From Candidatus Poseidoniaceae archaeon (GTDB taxonomy: Archaea > Thermoplasmatota > Poseidoniia > Poseidoniales > Poseidoniaceae): a stretch of DNA of 38,346 nt. The stretch covers positions 1 to 38,346 of the forward strand of contig JASLKC010000033.1 of assembly GCA_030747785.1 (NCBI GenBank). The letters are read 5' to 3'. Shown piece after piece: positions 10,514-19,624 of the stretch. How positions within the stretch are numbered: the first letter of the stretch is position 1; the number at the start of each line of letters is the position of its first letter. The translations under genes and the position numbers were made by a program. The notes under the pieces were generated by a model. It did no database searches. It was given only the letters and a program-made list of their open reading frames with translations, and was not told the origin of the DNA.

Positions 10514-11566
10514 ATGGCGGGGATGAATACTGCAGAAAGCATGGGCGACCTCCACTGTATTGTTAATCCAGCGAGTAGAGACCATACTTGTGGAAAGCGT
10601 TGGCCAAAGATAGTTGAGAAACTTGAAGCGCGTGGATTCACAGTCCATACTCATATGACTGAAAAAGTAGGTCATGCCAGTCAAATTGCCTGGGATTTGA
10701 GGCAGGAAGGAGTTGATGGAATGATAGTAGCAGCTGGTGGCGATGGGACTGTTCACGAAGTTGCAAGTGGTTTGCGAGGCTCAGATATTGTGATGGGAGT
10801 TTTGCCATTTGGCTCTGGTAATGATTACGGTATCACTCAAGGAGTATTCAATAAGGACATCGATGGAGCGATTGAAGTTTTGGTAAATGGAGTCGATAGA
10901 CGCTGTGCTGCATGGAGATTAGAAGGATTTCCAGCAGAGGATGCTGATGGTTATCCTGCCCCAACAGTAAATCAGTGGGATGGGCCATGTCCAGAAGGCA
11001 AGGTAGTACGTTGGGTATTTCTCGAATCAGATGCAGGCATTACTAGCGAAATATCCAGAGCGAAATTATATCGCGCAAAATGGATTAAGGGTGCAAAGAA
11101 ATACACATATCTCGGTATTACAACAATTCCAGTTTGGAAGCGTCGCAAAGTGTGGTTAAAATTAGATGATGAGGAAGGCGAAATTGTCGATTTTACAATG
11201 TATGCTGCTACAACAGGTGAAACTTTTGGAGGCGGATATATCGTTAGTCCGGGCGTAACCCCTCTCGACCAACACGGTTCCATTGTATATGCTCCAAGAA
11301 TGTCTAGACTCGCAATGCTTTCACTAATGGGTCCAATGAAGAAAGGTAAGCACATTGGCAAGTGGGGAATTTTCCAGCGTAAAGCGGATCGAATCGAACT
11401 AAAGCCGGTGGATAAGGATGGTTCAATTAGCGATAAACCGATTGAACCGATGACATGGGTTCAAGCAGATGGCGAACCTTGTATTGTAGCACCAGCAATA
11501 CTAGAATGGCATACCGAGCAAATATTGGTAAGAGGAGCGCCCAATGTTCCTTGGGATTCACAATGA
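10514..11566 (+). CDS. Diacylglycerol/sphingosine-kinase-like lipid kinase
   Basis: A member of the DAGK catalytic-domain (LCB5/YegS) family, which phosphorylates lipid hydroxyls using ATP. The N-terminal strand LHCIVNPASRD is typical. The nucleotide-binding motif AAGGDGTVHEV and the motif LPFGSGNDYGI follow. The start at 10514 is chosen because a GGGGGAGGA Shine-Dalgarno lies just before it; the track start at 10460 is further upstream. The length is 350 aa. In this organism it may act in polar-lipid precursor metabolism or salvage, which is inference. Its 3' end overlaps the convergent lipoprotein gene by 9 bp. Confidence 0.87.
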   Translation: MAGMNTAESMGDLHCIVNPASRDHTCGKRWPKIVEKLEARGFTVHTHMTEKVGHASQIAWDLRQEGVDGMIVAAGGDGTVHEVASGLRGSDIVMGVLPFGSGNDYGITQGVFNKDIDGAIEVLVNGVDRRCAAWRLEGFPAEDADGYPAPTVNQWDGPCPEGKVVRWVFLESDAGITSEISRAKLYRAKWIKGAKKYTYLGITTIPVWKRRKVWLKLDDEEGEIVDFTMYAATTGETFGGGYIVSPGVTPLDQHGSIVYAPRMSRLAMLSLMGPMKKGKHIGKWGIFQRKADRIELKPVDKDGSISDKPIEPMTWVQADGEPCIVAPAILEWHTEQILVRGAPNVPWDSQ

Positions 11567-12949
11567 GAAGTCATTGAAATCATCACCAGCAACAGATGGT
11601 TCACTGGATTTTCTTTGTACTGGTTCCGGTTCTGGTTCCGGTTCAGGCACAGCGGCTTTACGCTTCTTTACGGTTCTGCGCTTGACAGGCTTTGCCCCCT
11701 TAGTTGGTTGTGATGCAGAGGTAGGGTCATTGATTGACGAGCCACGCATTGCTGAGGAGAAGTGTTGACGTTTGGCCGCAGGTTCTGGTTGACTTGATGT
11801 TACACTTGAGCCTGAATACATACTGTCACTTTGTGTTGCAACCGGTTCGTACGAGGTTTGCGTCACTTGAGGTGCAGATACTGCGGCTTTATCTTTGACT
11901 TCTGGAGCAACTGTTACTGAACCGGAAACGCCTCCGCCGAATTCAGTTGGTCCGCTATCATCGGAATCCGTGGAAAGAATATTGTCAAGGCTGAATCCAG
12001 CTAATTCTTTTTCTTCTTTTACTTTCGGAGCCGCTGCCTTTGGTTTTTGTTTTGTAGGCGCTCTTGGTCCAAGGTCTTCCTTTTTCGATTGCTTCAAATC
12101 ACGCTTCATTTGTATGGCTTTAGCAAAGCCTTCTCTACCGAGCAGAGTCTTAGCAGAACTCTTCGCTCCCTGACGAATCATCATTGTAGAGAAGGTGAAC
12201 ATTGCGAAACCGCCACCGCCTCCGACTACTAGGAAGAAAATAACGAATGACCATCTGCCAAAGTAGTCGGTGTCTCCAAGTGCCCATTCATCATCATGGT
12301 CACCATTTGCACTGACAACCCCTTCCTCGACTTCAATGGAAGTGATAATCATCCCTTGTGCTTGGTAGGCGAAATTACAACTATCGGCTTCTAATTGATC
12401 AGCAGGAACTCCGGAATTTACTACAAGATATCCTTTGATTGTAATGGCTTGTTGCCACTCATCTAGAACATTGAGATTATCCGCTACATTTTCAGAGCCT
12501 GGTATTATTCCAATTACAGCCCATTCGCTTTCGTGCTCAGAAAGTTTCGACCCAACGGCTTCTTCTGGGTATAGAGGTGTAATCCAGTGCTTGAGATCTA
12601 CTCGTGGACCCATCTCTACTTGGACTGCTTCTCTCCAAGTCATTTTGTCAATGATTACAGCAGCCCCCATTGCTTTCTCATAACTTTGAACATCATCTGT
12701 ATGGCTTTCATACACAACGGAGGAGATTAACCAGCCCGTTATCGTAAATTCCCCATCACCGCACTTTCCAAGGGTGAGTGATTCGGAATAGGAGTTAGGG
12801 CCCAATTCTGATTTGATATCTGCCGAATCGTCGTTTAGCGTAACTTCCACCCCATCAGCACCCCATTCAGGCGTAGCACTAGCAATGCAGCCAGTGAGAA
12901 GAAACAGGACCGAGACGAACAGAACCATGAGTCTGGGGTCGCGGGCCAT
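11558..12949 (-). CDS. Lipoprotein-like envelope protein with second membrane anchor and cytoplasmic tail
   Basis: Function unknown. The track ORF reads back into the tRNA-Ser gene; the ATG at 12949 gives 463 aa. The N-terminus MARDPRLMVLFVSVLFLLTGC is a signal peptide ending in an LTGC lipobox. An extracytoplasmic domain of about 200 residues follows. A transmembrane helix then appears at about residues 225-248 (FVIFFLVVGGGGGFAMF). The tail of about 210 residues is charged and low-complexity, with Lys-rich patches and an EPEPEPEP run near the end. With a lipidated N-terminus outside, the tail should lie in the cytoplasm. It begins 48 bp downstream of tRNA-Ser on the same strand. Confidence 0.72.
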   Translation of the reverse strand: MARDPRLMVLFVSVLFLLTGCIASATPEWGADGVEVTLNDDSADIKSELGPNSYSESLTLGKCGDGEFTITGWLISSVVYESHTDDVQSYEKAMGAAVIIDKMTWREAVQVEMGPRVDLKHWITPLYPEEAVGSKLSEHESEWAVIGIIPGSENVADNLNVLDEWQQAITIKGYLVVNSGVPADQLEADSCNFAYQAQGMIITSIEVEEGVVSANGDHDDEWALGDTDYFGRWSFVIFFLVVGGGGGFAMFTFSTMMIRQGAKSSAKTLLGREGFAKAIQMKRDLKQSKKEDLGPRAPTKQKPKAAAPKVKEEKELAGFSLDNILSTDSDDSGPTEFGGGVSGSVTVAPEVKDKAAVSAPQVTQTSYEPVATQSDSMYSGSSVTSSQPEPAAKRQHFSSAMRGSSINDPTSASQPTKGAKPVKRRTVKKRKAAVPEPEPEPEPVQRKSSEPSVAGDDFNDFSL

Positions 12950-12997
12950 GAGGTGCCTACGGCACCTTTGGTTTGTCAAACCATCGTTTGTGAAAAG

Positions 12998-13079
12998 CGC
13001 GGAGAGAGAGATTCGAACTCCCGTGTCAGAAGACACCGGCTTTCAAGGCCGGCGCAATACCAGGCTATGCGACCTCCGC
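12998..13079 (-). tRNA. tRNA-Ser, anticodon TGA
   Basis: Read on the minus strand, the acceptor GCGGAGG pairs with TCTCCGC (one G:T), and the discriminator base is G, as expected for serine. The anticodon stem CCGGC/GCCGG closes the loop CTTGAAA, giving TGA at plus-strand 13043-13045. A long class II variable arm (TGTCTTCTGACA) and a T-arm with GTTCGAATC are present. CCA is not encoded and no intron is seen. It lies between the SCO1-like gene and the lipoprotein gene, all on the minus strand. Confidence 0.92.
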
Positions 13080-13124: not shown

Positions 13125-14552
13125 TTACTCATCCCGAGAACTAGCAATGAATGCTAATCCAAGCGCCGCTGCAACCATACTAAACGTAAATCCTGGAATA
13201 CTATCCGAAGAATCCAAATCAGATACGCCATTGATTATTTTCTTGATATCTTCAACAAAATCGCTGACATCCCATTGATATCCGGACCAGGAAATCCTAG
13301 GTTTGCCGTTTGAATCTAAAATAAATGTAAGAGTAGTATGGAGAGTCGAATATTCTGATTCATCGCTATCATGATCCATTCCTTCCATATTAGCCGGAGA
13401 TGGAATACTCATGTCTGCAGTAGAATTTGGAGCCCAAGCAATATGCATGGTATCCGTCAAATCATCCATACCAACTTGTGCCTCTTCCCACATCCCCGAT
13501 GCGGCATTCCATGAATGGAGTTGCCACCACCAACTGAAATCCGATGGTGCTGTGACATTTCCAATCGAACTCATGTAATGTCCATTTTCACTATCTGGAG
13601 CTTCAAAATCACTGAGTGTAGCCATGGATTGATGCCATGCATTTGTTGCAGGCATCATAGCGCTACTTGAATTTCCGCTTACATCGACTATTGTAGTAGA
13701 AGCATGCTCTCCCATTGGAGCAGGAATTGTAGCATCATCAGTGGTATTTGGAGCGAATGCAATCGCTTGAGGCATTAGTGAAGCAATTGCCATGGTAGAA
13801 CTAGTCCAAATTGAATTATCAGAATCCCATGTGTGCAACTCCCACTCCCACGTGCCATCAGAAGGGGCCTCCTCACCATTTATTCCAGTAACTAAGTGAA
13901 TTTGAGAAACATCTTGTTCATCGGGTTGGGCCGTCACGATATTCCAATCTTCTTCGTATGAAGTTGCAGTTAGTTGGTGCCAACCATTCAACATAACATC
14001 ATGCTCACTTGAATTACCATCAGGCATCATCACAGTTACACTATCAGCATGAGACATATCATGGCCTCCATGGCCATCCTCATGTGATTCGATATACTCT
14101 CTGTCTACACTAACGAGGAATTGATCCCACACCGGTTCGACTTCTTCAGTAGTACCAGTAAGATGCGGCCATTCAACTCCATGCATTTCTGTAAATGCAG
14201 CAAGACGTTCTGGCGTATCATATTCAGGGTCAACAGAGATTGAAACAAAATTTACATCTTCTCCATCGAGCGACAATTGTGCAGTTTTCAAATTTTGAGT
14301 AATTGTCGGACACACTTCATGGCATCTGGTGAAGATAAATGCAACAACTGTTGCATCTGCAACTTCTCCAGTAATTGTAGTAGCTATTCCATTTTGATTG
14401 GTAAGTGTGAAATGGTCGATTGAAGATCTAGAGAGTGCAAGTCCATGATAGCCTTGTTCCGAGGTATCATGATTGTGACCACCATCAGCAATAGCATCAG
14501 GAATAGTTGCAACAAAAAGCAATCCAATAAGGCACAATACGGCCGCTCTCAT
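13125..14552 (-). CDS. SCO1/SenC-like copper protein with a large duplicated-domain insertion
   Basis: A predicted copper chaperone for the CuA site of the upstream oxidase. Residues 1-22 are a signal peptide. The thioredoxin-like fold starts near 45, with the copper-binding CHEVC at C77/C81 and ISVDPEYDTPERL after it. The third ligand, His in LHTTLTFILDSNG, is at about H405. In ordinary Sco proteins it lies under 100 residues after the cysteines. The additional 240 residues (about 158-400) hold a His-rich patch (HEDGHGGHDMSH) and two copies of a domain of about 100 residues marked by APSDxxWxWxLHxW and IAxAPNxTxD. A C-terminal helix (456-471) anchors the protein. GAGGTCA before the ATG is a good Shine-Dalgarno. 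It is the last gene of the cox operon. Confidence 0.88.
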   Translation of the reverse strand: MRAAVLCLIGLLFVATIPDAIADGGHNHDTSEQGYHGLALSRSSIDHFTLTNQNGIATTITGEVADATVVAFIFTRCHEVCPTITQNLKTAQLSLDGEDVNFVSISVDPEYDTPERLAAFTEMHGVEWPHLTGTTEEVEPVWDQFLVSVDREYIESHEDGHGGHDMSHADSVTVMMPDGNSSEHDVMLNGWHQLTATSYEEDWNIVTAQPDEQDVSQIHLVTGINGEEAPSDGTWEWELHTWDSDNSIWTSSTMAIASLMPQAIAFAPNTTDDATIPAPMGEHASTTIVDVSGNSSSAMMPATNAWHQSMATLSDFEAPDSENGHYMSSIGNVTAPSDFSWWWQLHSWNAASGMWEEAQVGMDDLTDTMHIAWAPNSTADMSIPSPANMEGMDHDSDESEYSTLHTTLTFILDSNGKPRISWSGYQWDVSDFVEDIKKIINGVSDLDSSDSIPGFTFSMVAAALGLAFIASSRDE

Positions 14553-14607: not shown

Positions 14608-14952
14608 TTATTCAATTACATATGCCCAATCGTAATTAGGCGTGCACCAATCTGGCAAACCGAGAATACTGTCAGGATTGGAAAGCCCGATTCCCCAAAG
14701 CATCAAAGCGACAAAGAGAACCGGGAATAGAGCGGTTCTGGTGTAGATGAAAGGGTCGCCTTTCAGGTGCATAAAGAATGCAGCAATTCCGTAAGCCTTG
14801 ACAATTCCAACTCCAATTAGAATTGCCCAGACGGTGTATACACTTAGGCCGGAAACATAGACTGCCCCGACTTCTAGCAATGTAAACAACATCAATACGA
14901 CGAAGTTCCAGAAGTAGATGTCCTTTCCTGCGTATAGCTTGTGTTCTCCCAT
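14608..14952 (-). CDS. ctaF: Cytochrome c oxidase subunit IV (CtaF/CyoD-like)
   Basis: A small accessory subunit of heme-copper oxidases, 114 aa, with three helices (about residues 14-34, 40-60 and 72-92). The segment KAYGIAAFFMHLKGD between helices 2 and 3 is characteristic of prokaryotic COX4 proteins. It follows subunit III by 9 bp. Its Shine-Dalgarno GAGGTGAT (14956-14963) overlaps the subunit III stop, indicating coupled translation. A 55-bp gap separates it from the SCO1-like gene. Confidence 0.88.
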   Translation of the reverse strand: MGEHKLYAGKDIYFWNFVVLMLFTLLEVGAVYVSGLSVYTVWAILIGVGIVKAYGIAAFFMHLKGDPFIYTRTALFPVLFVALMLWGIGLSNPDSILGLPDWCTPNYDWAYVIE

Positions 14953-14961
14953 AGTATCACC

Positions 14962-16332
14962 TCAGTACAGATAGAATGCGGGGAAGATGGCTACCCAAGC
15001 CAAATCCACAAAGTGCCAATAGAGTCCGAAGTATTCGATACCTCTACCGTTCTTTTCATCATAGCCCACAGTGTCGGCCTTGAAGATCATGAATAACATG
15101 ACTAGTAGTCCAATGAATACGTGCAATCCGTGTGCTCCGGTTGCTACATAGAAGATTGAACCAGCCTGTGTGTTGATATCGAAGCCTTCTGCAACTAGAT
15201 GACTCCATTCAATTAGTTTCAGGATAATGAAGAGAGACCCTAGTGCCAGAGTCATCATCAGATAGTTTCGTACAGCCTTCTTGCGGGTCGGGAATAACTT
15301 AGCCATCAATTTATTATCGCTAACTGTCCACTTGGTGTCTTTAGCGGTCTTCAGTGCAAGAACAATGGTGTATGAAGAGATAATCAGTGCAAAGGTATTG
15401 ATTGCACCAGGAAGTAAAGTTCCAATGTCGTGGCGTAGAAGGTCAGATGCTGTAACAACATCAGCAGGTCCAACACAACGTCCGGAATCTACTGCCCATT
15501 GAGTACACCATTCTGTGCGCATTCTCAGGTAAGAGGAGAAGAATGATGCGAAGACCATCATCTCAGACATAAGGAAAATCCACATTCCAGCCTTTCTAAT
15601 ATCCTGTCCGCCGAATGGCTGACCTAATGCAACCTGTTCATGATGGCCTGCAAGGTCTTCTCTCCACCAGTTGCCGATTCCCACTATTGCAATCATGAAA
15701 CCTACAACGGAGATCGTGAAGCCGCCGTAATCTGCAGCGTAATCAAGTCCAAGTACAGCCTTACAGGTGTCAACGAAACCTGGGAATCCCATCATGAAGA
15801 GTAGGATTCCACTTGCCATTAGAATCGGTGATGCAGATCCATGGTGTTCTTCATGGTCGCCATCATGAGCATAAGGATCATCATCAGGTTGTATACTGTT
15901 AAAGAATCCTGCAACCAAGTAAAATGAAGCGTAAACAACCATCATTAGAGCGATGGTAATTCCAGCGGTCTTCCATGTAAGATATGATAGATGGGCATCG
16001 ATTTTTGCATGTTCTGCATGATCATATTCTTCGAATGCATGCTCGTAATGTTCTAATGCATCTTCACGCTCATCATGTACTTCTCCAGAAGCAGGTCGCC
16101 CTGCATCTTCCCAAGCTTTGTCAGCGGTAGCAAATTCATCCGATGCTTCGACATAATGGTCGTGTGCATTCTCGTATGGAATAATCGTATCTTCCCAAGC
16201 ATGATGCTTCATGGACGCAATGCCAACAGACATTACGCCATATGCAAGGCCACCTACTACGAGTAAAGCGATACCTATCACAACAGTTTTCATCCATATG
16301 TCGTTTTTGACATCGTGCAAACTTCCGCTCAA
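14962..16332 (-). CDS. ctaE: Cytochrome c oxidase subunit III with His-rich N-terminal extension
   Basis: The non-catalytic subunit III of the oxidase. The core is recognised by DIRKAGMWIFLMSEMMVFASFFSSYLR and by the end GAHGLHVFIGLLVMLF and YWHFVDLAWVAIFPAFYLY. At 456 aa it is much longer than bacterial subunit III. The extra part is TM1 (14-38) and a charged, probably coiled-coil loop (about 40-120) with about ten His residues, followed by TM2 (124-143) and a second His cluster (AHDGDHEEHHG). The start codon is TTG at 16332, preceded by a perfect AGGAGGTG at 16338-16345. It overlaps the subunit I stop by 4 bp. Confidence 0.92.
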   Translation of the reverse strand: MSGSLHDVKNDIWMKTVVIGIALLVVGGLAYGVMSVGIASMKHHAWEDTIIPYENAHDHYVEASDEFATADKAWEDAGRPASGEVHDEREDALEHYEHAFEEYDHAEHAKIDAHLSYLTWKTAGITIALMMVVYASFYLVAGFFNSIQPDDDPYAHDGDHEEHHGSASPILMASGILLFMMGFPGFVDTCKAVLGLDYAADYGGFTISVVGFMIAIVGIGNWWREDLAGHHEQVALGQPFGGQDIRKAGMWIFLMSEMMVFASFFSSYLRMRTEWCTQWAVDSGRCVGPADVVTASDLLRHDIGTLLPGAINTFALIISSYTIVLALKTAKDTKWTVSDNKLMAKLFPTRKKAVRNYLMMTLALGSLFIILKLIEWSHLVAEGFDINTQAGSIFYVATGAHGLHVFIGLLVMLFMIFKADTVGYDEKNGRGIEYFGLYWHFVDLAWVAIFPAFYLY

Positions 16333-18632
16333 TGTTCCACCTCCTCTGAGTCCTTTTCACCTATTGACCATAATTTCGTGGCCATCTTACCAAAGAATCC
16401 TGGTTCATGGTGATCATCTTCATTATCATCCAATTGGGTAGGGATGATTGCAAAGGAAGGCGTTGGTGGTGGACTAGTTGTCGCCCACTCGAGTGACCAA
16501 CCGCCCCATGGGTCCTTTCCTACCTTCTCGCCCTTCTTTGAGGAGTGGATAATATTCCATAGTAAGAGAACTTGTGAAATTCCAAAGATAAAGGCCATGA
16601 TTGTGATGACCATGTTTAGTTCAGCGAAGCCCGAATCTGCGGTAAATGTGTGAGTACGACGAGGCATTCCCATTATTCCCACTACGTGCATTGGCCAGAA
16701 CGCTCCGTTGTAAGAAGCGAAACCGATCAAGAAATGCCACAATCCAAGAGTTTCATTCATCTTACGGCCAGTAACCTTAGGGAACCAGTAATAGATTCCT
16801 GAGAATAGTGCGAAAACAATTCCTCCAATGAATACATAGTGGAAGTGAGCAACAACGAAGTATCCATCATGCAATTGAGTATCTAGTCCAGCAACCGGGA
16901 AGAACATTCCAGATAACCCTCCCAGTGTAAATGTGATTAGGAATCCGAGCGACCATAGAGTGTGGGTCTTGAAGACTAAGCTTCCTCCCCATAATGTTGC
17001 AAGCCAATTGAAAATTTTCACTCCGGTTGGAATTGCTACAGCCATCGTAGTTAGCATGAATAGCGAGCGCCAGAATGGGTCCATTCCACTAGTAAGCATG
17101 TGATGGCCCCAGACAATAAATCCAACAGCGCCGATTCCAGCCATTGCGTATACCATTGATTTGTATCCAAAAATAGAGCGTCGAGCACTTGTAGCCAATA
17201 CTTCAGAAACGATTCCGAATGCAGGCACTACTACAACATATACTTCAGGATGGCCAAAGAACCAGAATAGATGCTGGAATAGAATCGGGTCTCCACCACT
17301 TACGAAGAATACAGTTCCAATTGTACTATCGAAGAGCAGGAAGAATACGCCGATAATGAATGGTGGCAAACTCAGGTATAGCATGAATACGCTAACTAGT
17401 ACGGACCAAGAGAATAGAGGCATTTTCATCCACTTGACGCCGTGGGCTCGCATTGTGAAAGCGGTGGTAATGAAATTTATTCCGCTTAGAGTAGAAGATG
17501 CACCAAGCAATGCAATTCCTGAGATGAATGAGATAGTTCCAGCATTAGGCCCTCCTTCCATTCCAGTTAATCCAGCATATGGTGGATACATGACCCATGT
17601 GATGTCAGCCGCTTCACCGCTCCAGATTCCCTTGAAGATTAGAGGAGCTGCTGCAACGACTAACCAGAATCCAAGAGCATTGATTCTTGGGAATGCCAAG
17701 TCCTTAGCTCCGATTTGAAGTGGAAGAACATAGTTCATGAAACCAGCAATCATTGGCATTGCAGCTAAGAAAATCATGGTCGTGCCGTGTAGAGTAAAGA
17801 ATGAGTTGTACTCATCATAGCTGAGGAAGTCATTATCTGGAAGTGCTAATTGTATACGGAATAGCAATGCCAGAAGTCCTCCTACTAGGAAGAAGAAGAA
17901 TCCATACAAGAAGTAGAGAATACCTACTTCTTTGTGATCGGTAGTCGTTAGCCAGGGTTTCAAGTACGCCCAGAAGTTTCCAATAGAGAAAGTTCCAGGG
18001 CTACGAGTATAGAAAACCCACATGGTTCCGATTAGGATTAAGCCAAGTGCTAGTCCAATAGCAGTCATCAAAATCGTGAGTGCTGCTGCAGATGGTGCAG
18101 AAGGACTGGCTTGTACACCAGGAACTACTAATTCCCCGCTATTCCATCCATCTCCACCCGAGGTATCGTCACCATTGACCGCATTTGCGAGATAATGGAA
18201 TGTTGCAGTTTGAGTATCATCTGCTGGAGCAGTCCACTTGAAAGTCCAACTTCGAACACTATTGACATCGTCATTGTGAGTAAGTGCTCCTTCTATCTCA
18301 TGGCCAACATTTCCTTGAGCATCAGGAACCGCTTCAAGAGTTCCCACAGAGTCTTCGACCCATATTCTAAATCCACCTGAACGGTCATATCCGCCAGATG
18401 CACCAACGACTTCATCATTGGTAATACTAAGAGTGAACGTATATTCTTCACTTGCATTGAAAGTTTCAGGAAGACCATCAATAGAAATCACAGTAGCAGC
18501 AGATTGAGTGTGACAAAGACAACCATCGTTTGCGTTAGAGCCAATACCTCCAGGCGAAGCTTCGAATTGAGGTATAGTGACGAGAGCCATCATCAGAATG
18601 GCAATCAGTGCAAAGGTGCGCTTTCCGTTCAT
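16329..18632 (-). CDS. ctaD: Cytochrome c oxidase subunit I fused to a secreted N-terminal domain
   Basis: The catalytic subunit of an A1-type heme-copper oxidase that reduces O2 and pumps protons. Residues 1-25 form a signal peptide. Residues 26-172 form an extracytoplasmic domain that starts SPGG, contains CLCH (38-41), and ends in an ANAVNGDDTSGGDGW block, closely resembling choice-of-anchor V domains. An additional helix (181-207) leads into the core. Heme and CuB ligands are H282, H461 and Y465 (HPEVY), H510/H511, and H596/H598 (HFH). The proton-channel residues D311, E463 and K539 are present. The C-terminus is acidic with DDHHE. It overlaps subunit II and subunit III by 4 bp each. The N-terminal fusion is the unusual part. 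Confidence 0.96.
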   Translation of the reverse strand: MNGKRTFALIAILMMALVTIPQFEASPGGIGSNANDGCLCHTQSAATVISIDGLPETFNASEEYTFTLSITNDEVVGASGGYDRSGGFRIWVEDSVGTLEAVPDAQGNVGHEIEGALTHNDDVNSVRSWTFKWTAPADDTQTATFHYLANAVNGDDTSGGDGWNSGELVVPGVQASPSAPSAAALTILMTAIGLALGLILIGTMWVFYTRSPGTFSIGNFWAYLKPWLTTTDHKEVGILYFLYGFFFFLVGGLLALLFRIQLALPDNDFLSYDEYNSFFTLHGTTMIFLAAMPMIAGFMNYVLPLQIGAKDLAFPRINALGFWLVVAAAPLIFKGIWSGEAADITWVMYPPYAGLTGMEGGPNAGTISFISGIALLGASSTLSGINFITTAFTMRAHGVKWMKMPLFSWSVLVSVFMLYLSLPPFIIGVFFLLFDSTIGTVFFVSGGDPILFQHLFWFFGHPEVYVVVVPAFGIVSEVLATSARRSIFGYKSMVYAMAGIGAVGFIVWGHHMLTSGMDPFWRSLFMLTTMAVAIPTGVKIFNWLATLWGGSLVFKTHTLWSLGFLITFTLGGLSGMFFPVAGLDTQLHDGYFVVAHFHYVFIGGIVFALFSGIYYWFPKVTGRKMNETLGLWHFLIGFASYNGAFWPMHVVGIMGMPRRTHTFTADSGFAELNMVITIMAFIFGISQVLLLWNIIHSSKKGEKVGKDPWGGWSLEWATTSPPPTPSFAIIPTQLDDNEDDHHEPGFFGKMATKLWSIGEKDSEEVEH
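16338..16345 (-). promoter_or_regulatory. Strong Shine-Dalgarno deciding the TTG start of ctaE
   Basis: On the minus strand AGGAGGTG lies five bases before TTG at 16330-16332. It fully matches the anti-Shine-Dalgarno core and sits inside the last codons of ctaD, so the subunit III start is TTG and is coupled to subunit I. Confidence 0.8.
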
Positions 18633-19624
18633 TCGAGTGCCCCCATGTCTCCAAATACAATGCCAAAGTCTTCGTCACATGTCTCACCCTCTCGGGCTAC
18701 AACTTCAACTTCTCCAGTCATTACTGAGTGTTGTTCTCCACAATATTCTGCACATCGAACTGGGAAGGTACCGGCCTCATTGGGTTGAACGAATAGCCAA
18801 GTGCCACCTTCAAGTCCTGGGACAGCATCTTCTTTGTTACCCCATTCTTGGAGCCATAATGCATGCTGTACACCTTGGTGGCGGGAATTATCATCATTGT
18901 ACTTGTCAGAATGGATATTGATAGTAACATCTTCATCACATGGAATGATGAAATCATCAGTCATTTTTAGTCCGATTCTAATGTGATGCCAGCGATGAAC
19001 TACTTCACCTTCCGAATCGAGCAGGAAAACTTGTTGCTCAACATTACTGTCAAAGGGCTGGTCAAGACTTGAATTATTAGCCAAATCTAAATCGATACTA
19101 TTGCTAGAGTATACAAGATCGCCATTATCGTTTAGCGATAGGGTTTCCCAACTTACTTCTGCTGTGACTGCTGCTGTTCCAGCAGCGATCGAAAGTCCAT
19201 TTGCATCCCAAGTTACATCATGAATAGTAGACATATCTTCCCAAGTCATTTCATCTTGGTAGCGATATTCCCAGTACCATTGCATGCCATTTGCTTCGAC
19301 AGTGAATGAATCACTTTCGGAAGGAATGGCACCCCACACGAGATTCATTGAACCGAATGCAAGCCAAGTCACCCACAGAATGAGAATAGTTGGGCCGAGG
19401 AACCAAGCGAATTCCAATTTGGCATTATGTCGTTCTTTTGGAAAAGTTCCGACTTTCAGTACTTCTTTACCAGCAGGCTCGACACCTTCTCGATATCGAA
19501 GAACTGCAATGAGTAGCCAAACAAAGGCAAATATTCCTACCAAAATTGACCAGAACATGAATTTATCATACAACACCGTGAACAAGGTGTTTTCATCCGG
19601 CCACAACTCTCGCGAAGCGCCCAT
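18629..19624 (-). CDS. ctaC: Cytochrome c oxidase subunit II with CuA site
   Basis: The electron-entry subunit. Two helices (about 22-45 and 71-95) anchor a periplasmic-side cupredoxin domain. MQWYWEYRY is the aromatic electron-entry segment. CuA ligands are complete: H254, C291, E293, C295, H299 and M302 (CAEYCGEQHSVM). About 90 additional residues (125-215), rich in Asn, Asp and Ser, lie between the aromatic segment and the CuA half. No heme c domain is fused, so the donor is likely a soluble or anchored carrier such as a blue copper protein, which is inference. It is the first gene of the operon and its stop overlaps the ctaD start. Confidence 0.95.
   Translation of the reverse strand: MGASRELWPDENTLFTVLYDKFMFWSILVGIFAFVWLLIAVLRYREGVEPAGKEVLKVGTFPKERHNAKLEFAWFLGPTILILWVTWLAFGSMNLVWGAIPSESDSFTVEANGMQWYWEYRYQDEMTWEDMSTIHDVTWDANGLSIAAGTAAVTAEVSWETLSLNDNGDLVYSSNSIDLDLANNSSLDQPFDSNVEQQVFLLDSEGEVVHRWHHIRIGLKMTDDFIIPCDEDVTINIHSDKYNDDNSRHQGVQHALWLQEWGNKEDAVPGLEGGTWLFVQPNEAGTFPVRCAEYCGEQHSVMTGEVEVVAREGETCDEDFGIVFGDMGALE

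Follow-up and report, generated by a model that had tools for sequence, protein, structure and literature searches.

Locus and gene organization

The window, meaning the whole stretch of 38,346 nucleotides that was analysed, carries on its minus strand a cytochrome oxidase operon in the order COX2-COX1-COX3-COX4-sco. The last gene encodes a protein of 475 residues in which two domains are inserted between the cysteine pair and the predicted histidine ligand of a Sco fold. The genes of the operon and the features of the Sco protein are listed below.

18629-19624, minus strand: COX2, with the CuA motif CAEYCGEQHSVM
16329-18632, minus strand: COX1, with an N-terminal choice-of-anchor V domain
14962-16332, minus strand: COX3, with about 200 extra residues at the N-terminus
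14608-14952, minus strand: COX4, prokaryotic subunit IV (Pfam PF03626; synteny)
13125-14552, minus strand: whole Sco gene, 475 residues (open reading frame and Pfam scan)
14484-14552, minus strand: predicted signal peptide, residues 1-23 (sequence; AlphaFold2 helix 2-15)
14088-14420, minus strand: first part of the Sco thioredoxin fold, residues 45-155 (Pfam SCO1-SenC, PDB Sco matches, AlphaFold2)
14310-14324, minus strand: CxxxC copper motif of Sco, C77-H-E-V-C81 (both cysteines invariant in the alignments)
14040-14087, minus strand: linker 1, residues 156-171, with H157, H161, H164, H168 and M166
13716-14039, minus strand: R1, inserted SLBB/DUF4430-like domain, residues 172-279 (profile match, 2e-30)
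13389-13703, minus strand: R2, inserted SLBB/DUF4430-like domain, residues 284-388 (profile, AlphaFold2, Foldseek)
13350-13388, minus strand: linker 2, residues 389-401 (low pLDDT at 393-398 in the AlphaFold2 model)
13230-13349, minus strand: Sco tail, residues 402-441 (phmmer match to 4hde residues 130-168; AlphaFold2)
13338-13340, minus strand: H405, predicted third copper ligand (invariant; aligned with the Sco ligand histidine)
13128-13211, minus strand: C-terminal anchor, a PGF-like tripartite tail, residues 448-475 (AlphaFold2 helix 453-472)

The operon is conserved. An alignment query located 422 relatives, from which 80 loci were fetched and 58 proteins extracted; their names place them in Candidatus Poseidoniaceae or Poseidoniales (marine group II). 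At least one oxidase gene match lies in the flank of all 80 loci. COX2-COX1-COX3 are found upstream on the same strand in 59 of the 80, many of the others being cut by contig ends. COX2, with its CuA motif, is the likely copper recipient. The choice-of-anchor V domain of COX1 was identified by NF041895 at 82 bits against a cut-off of 42, and a CxCH motif is located ahead of the oxidase part of the same subunit. The N-terminal extension of COX3 includes a long charged, helical-looking stretch.

Downstream of sco, a probable unannotated lipoprotein with a transmembrane segment is encoded at 11558-13036 on the minus strand. It is conserved after sco in 74 of the 80 loci and could be a further oxidase assembly factor. 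A later start is probable, since the listed one overlaps a tRNA-Ser gene (12997-13079). No lipobox was found in the signal peptide region of the Sco protein of this member. No curated PGF-CTERM model is among its NCBIfam matches; archaeosortase-family genes are present in the window's own genome.

A Sco fold interrupted at the ligand loop

Sco proteins are normally compact and consist of one domain, and in established Sco structures the copper ligands usually lie within about 90 residues. The protein encoded here is not such an uninterrupted domain: C77 and H405 are 328 residues apart because two domains are inserted between them. The short ligand spacing is a trait of spacing that the Sco fold does not need. 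Both C77 and C81, as well as H405, are invariant in each of two alignments, one of 45 sequences and a wider set of 35. The preliminary description of this DNA had proposed a SCO1-like chaperone with CxxxC at 77-81 and a partner histidine at about 405, and the open reading frame and the Sco matches agree with it.

The unspliced protein aligns with the Sco structure 4hde in two pieces, residues 45-135 and 402-439, with the second falling on chain residues 130-168. An in silico splice, in which residues 159-396 were omitted, improved the E-value from 1.4e-12 to 2.7e-15 against 4hde, from 1.7e-11 to 5.5e-14 against the Bacillus subtilis Sco (1on4), and from 3.2e-6 to 1.3e-9 against Arabidopsis Sco1. 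The spliced sequence matches 4hde and the B. subtilis protein from end to end, tail included, and in the alignment to the latter H405 pairs with the conserved Sco histidine. The insert interrupts the thioredoxin fold at a loop, as had been suggested.

An AlphaFold2 model of the full protein was built from the 45-sequence alignment (pLDDT 84.7, pTM 0.52). All secondary-structure elements of Sco are present in this model: those as far as helix 135-144 come first, followed by the inserted domains, by a strand-strand-helix tail (strands 408-412 and 418-423, helix 429-440) and by helix 453-472. The tail is modelled at high confidence, which bears out the earlier idea that the segment with H405 is part of the Sco fold. 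Foldseek with the full model returned Bacillus Sco (BsSco) as the top match, with an E-value of 1.2e-8. The gene at 13125-14552 thus encodes a Sco/SenC protein whose thioredoxin fold is interrupted by an insert. Both Sco halves share one frame in all 58 extracted relatives (three confirmed by eye); separate genes for the two halves in close relatives had been named beforehand as one of the observations that would refute the proposal. A frameshift, a fusion or an assembly artefact as the cause of the split is excluded by the relatives in many genomes.

The SCO1-SenC match of Pfam covers residues 47-180 and ends inside R1. The ligand candidate suggested by this boundary, H168, was rejected: in the 45 sequences it is kept in 13%, versus 100% for H405, and it is for this reason regarded as a decoy in the SCO1-SenC alignment. 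The AhpC/TSA model gives a weak additional Pfam match.

Linker 1 has pLDDT values below 50 at residues 156-166. Across the relatives its histidine content is about 9-10%, compared with about 3% in the Sco core; the His-rich linkers are pronounced mainly in the window's genus and in some others, not everywhere. Two further histidines are possible extra ligands, namely H157 just before the insert (14082-14084, minus strand), conserved in 96% of the relatives, and H130, conserved in all of them.

The inserted domains are divergent SLBB/DUF4430 members

Local alignment of R1 with R2 scored 153, whereas 500 shuffles gave a mean of 37 with a standard deviation of 7 and a maximum of 67. An iterated profile matches both units, R1 at 174-279 (2e-30) and R2 at 288-386 (3e-33), and the paired motifs are APSDGTWEWELHTW / APSDFSWWWQLHSW and IAFAPNTTDD / IAWAPNSTAD. 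The two tandem repeats, with the boundaries and motifs first described for them, are therefore real. In R2 the tryptophans 341, 343, 348, 355 and 373 are invariant, and two histidines of the insert, H307 and H325, are 89-96% conserved.

The preliminary description had called the inserted domain unknown, and here it needs correction. The Pfam family DUF4430 matches 3 of 25 units, and 11 of 66 in a larger set, at best with an E-value of 2e-6; the Pfam scan gave no DUF4430 match for the window's own protein or for either of its units. One Sco relative, in G027, scores above the DUF4430 cut-off, at 27.2 versus 23.8 bits, as does L097, which the repeat profile matches at 1.2e-14. Alignment by hhalign of the repeat profile to independently gathered DUF4430 members yielded an E-value of 8e-6 and a probability of 84%. 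The profile of DUF4430 members in turn reaches transcobalamin-1 and 3u7z, weakly, at the level of sequence.

R2 was modelled by AlphaFold2 with a pLDDT of 89.9. Foldseek matched this model with a probability of 1.00 to 3u7z, which its depositors describe as a putative metal binding protein, but with a weak E-value of 0.037 and a TM score of 0.51. The beta domains of human intrinsic factor and transcobalamin followed with weak E-values. A Foldseek comparison of the R2 model with a viral fold library gave nothing above probability 0.2, the viral collection encodes no relative of the repeat, and the repeat sequence has no match in the PDB. The evidence from sequence, profile and fold converges: the Sco insert is a divergent member of the transcobalamin-like SLBB/DUF4430 family, for which a beta-grasp fold with a hairpin following the helix would be expected.

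Outside Sco, the repeat profile finds ZnuA-like lipoproteins, cupredoxin-containing proteins and PQQ-propeller proteins. A search for free-standing copies found none in the window's own genome, where the profile finds only the two copies of this gene. In the ZnuA-like proteins the SLBB domain divides the ZnuA match into two halves and lies within a His-rich region, and EF-hand matches are present in most of them. Lipoproteins with this arrangement were seen at L093, L094, L101, L102, L107, L108, L110 and L111. In three proteins measured, the ZnuA-like insert contains 10.7-18.6% histidine versus 2.3-3.2% elsewhere. No ZnuA family member was found in the window's own genome, which is incomplete, and the link between SLBB and ZnuA is for this reason known from other genera only. 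A divergent DUF4430 domain ends a propeller protein on contig C6 of the same genome; the propeller proteins with this domain family have no obvious metal role.

The ligand loop as an insertion site and its history

The Sco loop that ends at the last copper-binding residue seems to serve as a site for plugging in accessory parts. In genus g2 the Sco protein has no SLBB domain at this loop but a His-rich linker, at the same operon position (COX1, COX3, COX4, sco); since the operon is the same there, the insert is dispensable. In many Poseidoniaceae an EGF-like, Cys-rich segment is also present at this loop. A TSP3-like calcium-binding stretch occupies it in two Sco paralogues of family f2, as judged from a score of 15.1 bits, below the cut-off, for L286 and by eye for L287. 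In four class- or order-level relatives a thioredoxin-like domain with the motif CPHC, CGHC or CSVC fills the same site, and Pfam thioredoxin-type models match the insert strongly in all three of the four that were scanned. It is this replacement in class-level relatives that makes the loop an insertion hot spot.

L267, 556-2010: Sco with thioredoxin-like insert
L283, 634-2088: Sco with thioredoxin-like insert
L284, 342-1814: Sco with thioredoxin-like insert
L285, 560-2047: Sco with thioredoxin-like insert
L286, 1250-1984: tandem Sco paralogue with TSP3-like stretch, without SLBB
L287, 478-1191: tandem Sco paralogue with TSP3-like stretch, without SLBB

Among the Foldseek matches of the Sco model is 4txo, the complex of TlpA with ScoI. 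By analogy with structural work on TlpA and ScoI, it is suggestive that the thioredoxin at the Sco loop may serve as a built-in reductant. According to a review (PMC7558416), the His-bearing hairpin loop is the region of Sco that metal binding alters most, and it probably tunes the contacts with partners.

A match to the window's protein is found in 141 of 146 genomes of the family, with insert-free Sco paralogues counted in. The number of insert copies overall is 0, 1, 2, 3 and more: among the 58 extracted relatives 49 have two and nine have three, a single copy is present in L035-L039 and in families f2 and f3, and L044 has more. A tree of 96 units was calculated from 107 columns, with many forks unresolved. 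In it the Sco and ZnuA units form one group (99*), separate from the cupredoxin and propeller units. R1 units cluster together and R2 units likewise, with the exception of L045, whose units look like a separate duplication as far as the tree can tell. Because R1 and R2 each form one group, the pair is old within Poseidoniaceae. In the Sco-core tree the presence of the insert requires four changes, whose direction depends on the root; the tree is compatible with a single gain that would have been followed by losses or replacements.

Proposed role of the inserted domains and alternatives

The Sco protein would be exported and held by its C-terminal helix. C77, C81 and H405 are expected to hold copper, as predicted from the conserved ligands, and the copper would be passed on to the CuA site of COX2 from the same operon. 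The loop of the ligand histidine, enlarged by the two transcobalamin-like SLBB (DUF4430) domains, of probable beta-grasp fold, and by linkers containing histidine and methionine, would form an arm at the entrance to the metal site. Such an arm may collect copper, whether as the free metal or as a complex with a small organic ligand, or may dock a partner, while the Sco core performs the transfer. We consider it somewhat probable that this Sco matures the aa3-type cytochrome oxidase of Poseidoniales and that its ligand loop has grown into an arm for capture or docking. That the arm itself, with its His-rich linker 1 and invariant aromatic residues, is the capture or docking module at the site mouth is put forward more tentatively. 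That the protein binds copper, that it delivers the metal to CuA and that the SLBB domains have a role at all is in this proposal inferred from the features described above.

The arm could instead be a docking platform on the extracytoplasmic extras of COX1 and COX3 that makes no contact with copper. The conserved oxidase operon, the choice-of-anchor V domain of COX1 with the extension of COX3, and the change of the Sco ligand loop on metal binding, which likely modulates partner contacts (PMC7558416), are consistent with such a platform. However, the same subfamily is present in ZnuA-like proteins that have no oxidase partner, and g2 has the oxidase genes yet no insert; we regard this explanation as rather unlikely. 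The loss in g2 would also suit inserts that are general surface decoration or spacers, which a permissive loop tolerates and which do nothing specific for copper delivery, as would the unrelated nature of the modules at this site (SLBB copies, EGF-like, TSP3-like and thioredoxin-like segments, or a bare His-rich linker). Mere decoration is difficult to reconcile with R1 and R2 lineages that each form one group across Poseidoniaceae, with the invariant tryptophans and the conservation of H307 and H325, and with the reuse of SLBB beside the metal loops of ZnuA; it seems unlikely. A more ambitious proposal, which we consider improbable, is that the SLBB domains, akin to vitamin B12 binders, have been adopted by Poseidoniales as plug-in receptors for organically complexed metals in Sco and ZnuA. 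Positioned at the metal loops, they would bind the metal-ligand complex and hand the metal to the host site, and the Sco loop of relatives would bear a built-in thioredoxin reductant in place of SLBB.

Two further explanations concern the Sco core. With its thioredoxin fold, its CxxxC motif and the weak AhpC/TSA match, the protein might be a thiol-disulfide oxidoreductase of the Sco/thioredoxin group that acts on the CuA cysteines rather than a copper carrier. Against this are the invariance of H405 alongside the cysteine pair, the lack of a CxxC motif and the best matches, which are to Sco proteins; we judge it quite improbable. That the Sco domain stops near residue 180, uses H168 as its ligand and is followed by an unrelated C-terminal remainder is most improbable. 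Such a boundary agrees with the Pfam match at 47-180, but not with the conservation of H405 over H168, the match of tail residues 402-439 to 4hde, or the higher score of the spliced sequence.

The ligand loop is enlarged throughout an abundant group of marine archaea; the SLBB subfamily recurs in a zinc-type protein, and relatives have a thioredoxin-like domain at the loop. Insert-plus and insert-minus Sco proteins in the same operon provide natural pairs, by which the part of the loop in copper capture and partner docking becomes testable. A divergent DUF4430 subfamily also gains a concrete setting in metal proteins.

Comparison with known systems

We have compared the protein with Sco1/SenC chaperones, namely BsSco (1xzo/1on4), 4hde, AtSco1 (6n5u) and human SCO1. 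They are alike in the thioredoxin-like fold, in the combination of CxxxC with a distant histidine, in membrane anchoring and in location beside COX genes. The window's Sco is anchored C-terminally, whereas the known proteins are anchored N-terminally, and its ligand histidine is separated from the first cysteine by the two domains.

The SLBB/DUF4430 proteins (PF14478; 3u7z; the beta domains of transcobalamin and intrinsic factor) provide the best fold matches to the insert and resemble it in size, in the order of helix and strands, in the 'sInG...W...N' core and in their common extracellular location. The insert differs in having extra invariant tryptophans, and the copies here lie within a host domain instead of being fused to its end. 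The 2007 survey of SLBB names toroid, propeller and other fusions, and its section on fusions makes no mention of Sco or ZnuA hosts (PMC1796856).

A parallel to the position of the insert is offered by Poseidoniales lipoproteins of the metal-binding ZnuA type (L093, L101 and others), in which the same SLBB subfamily is present in a His-rich metal loop. These hosts, in contrast to the Sco protein, are substrate-binding proteins of the zinc/manganese type, with EF-hand motifs in most.
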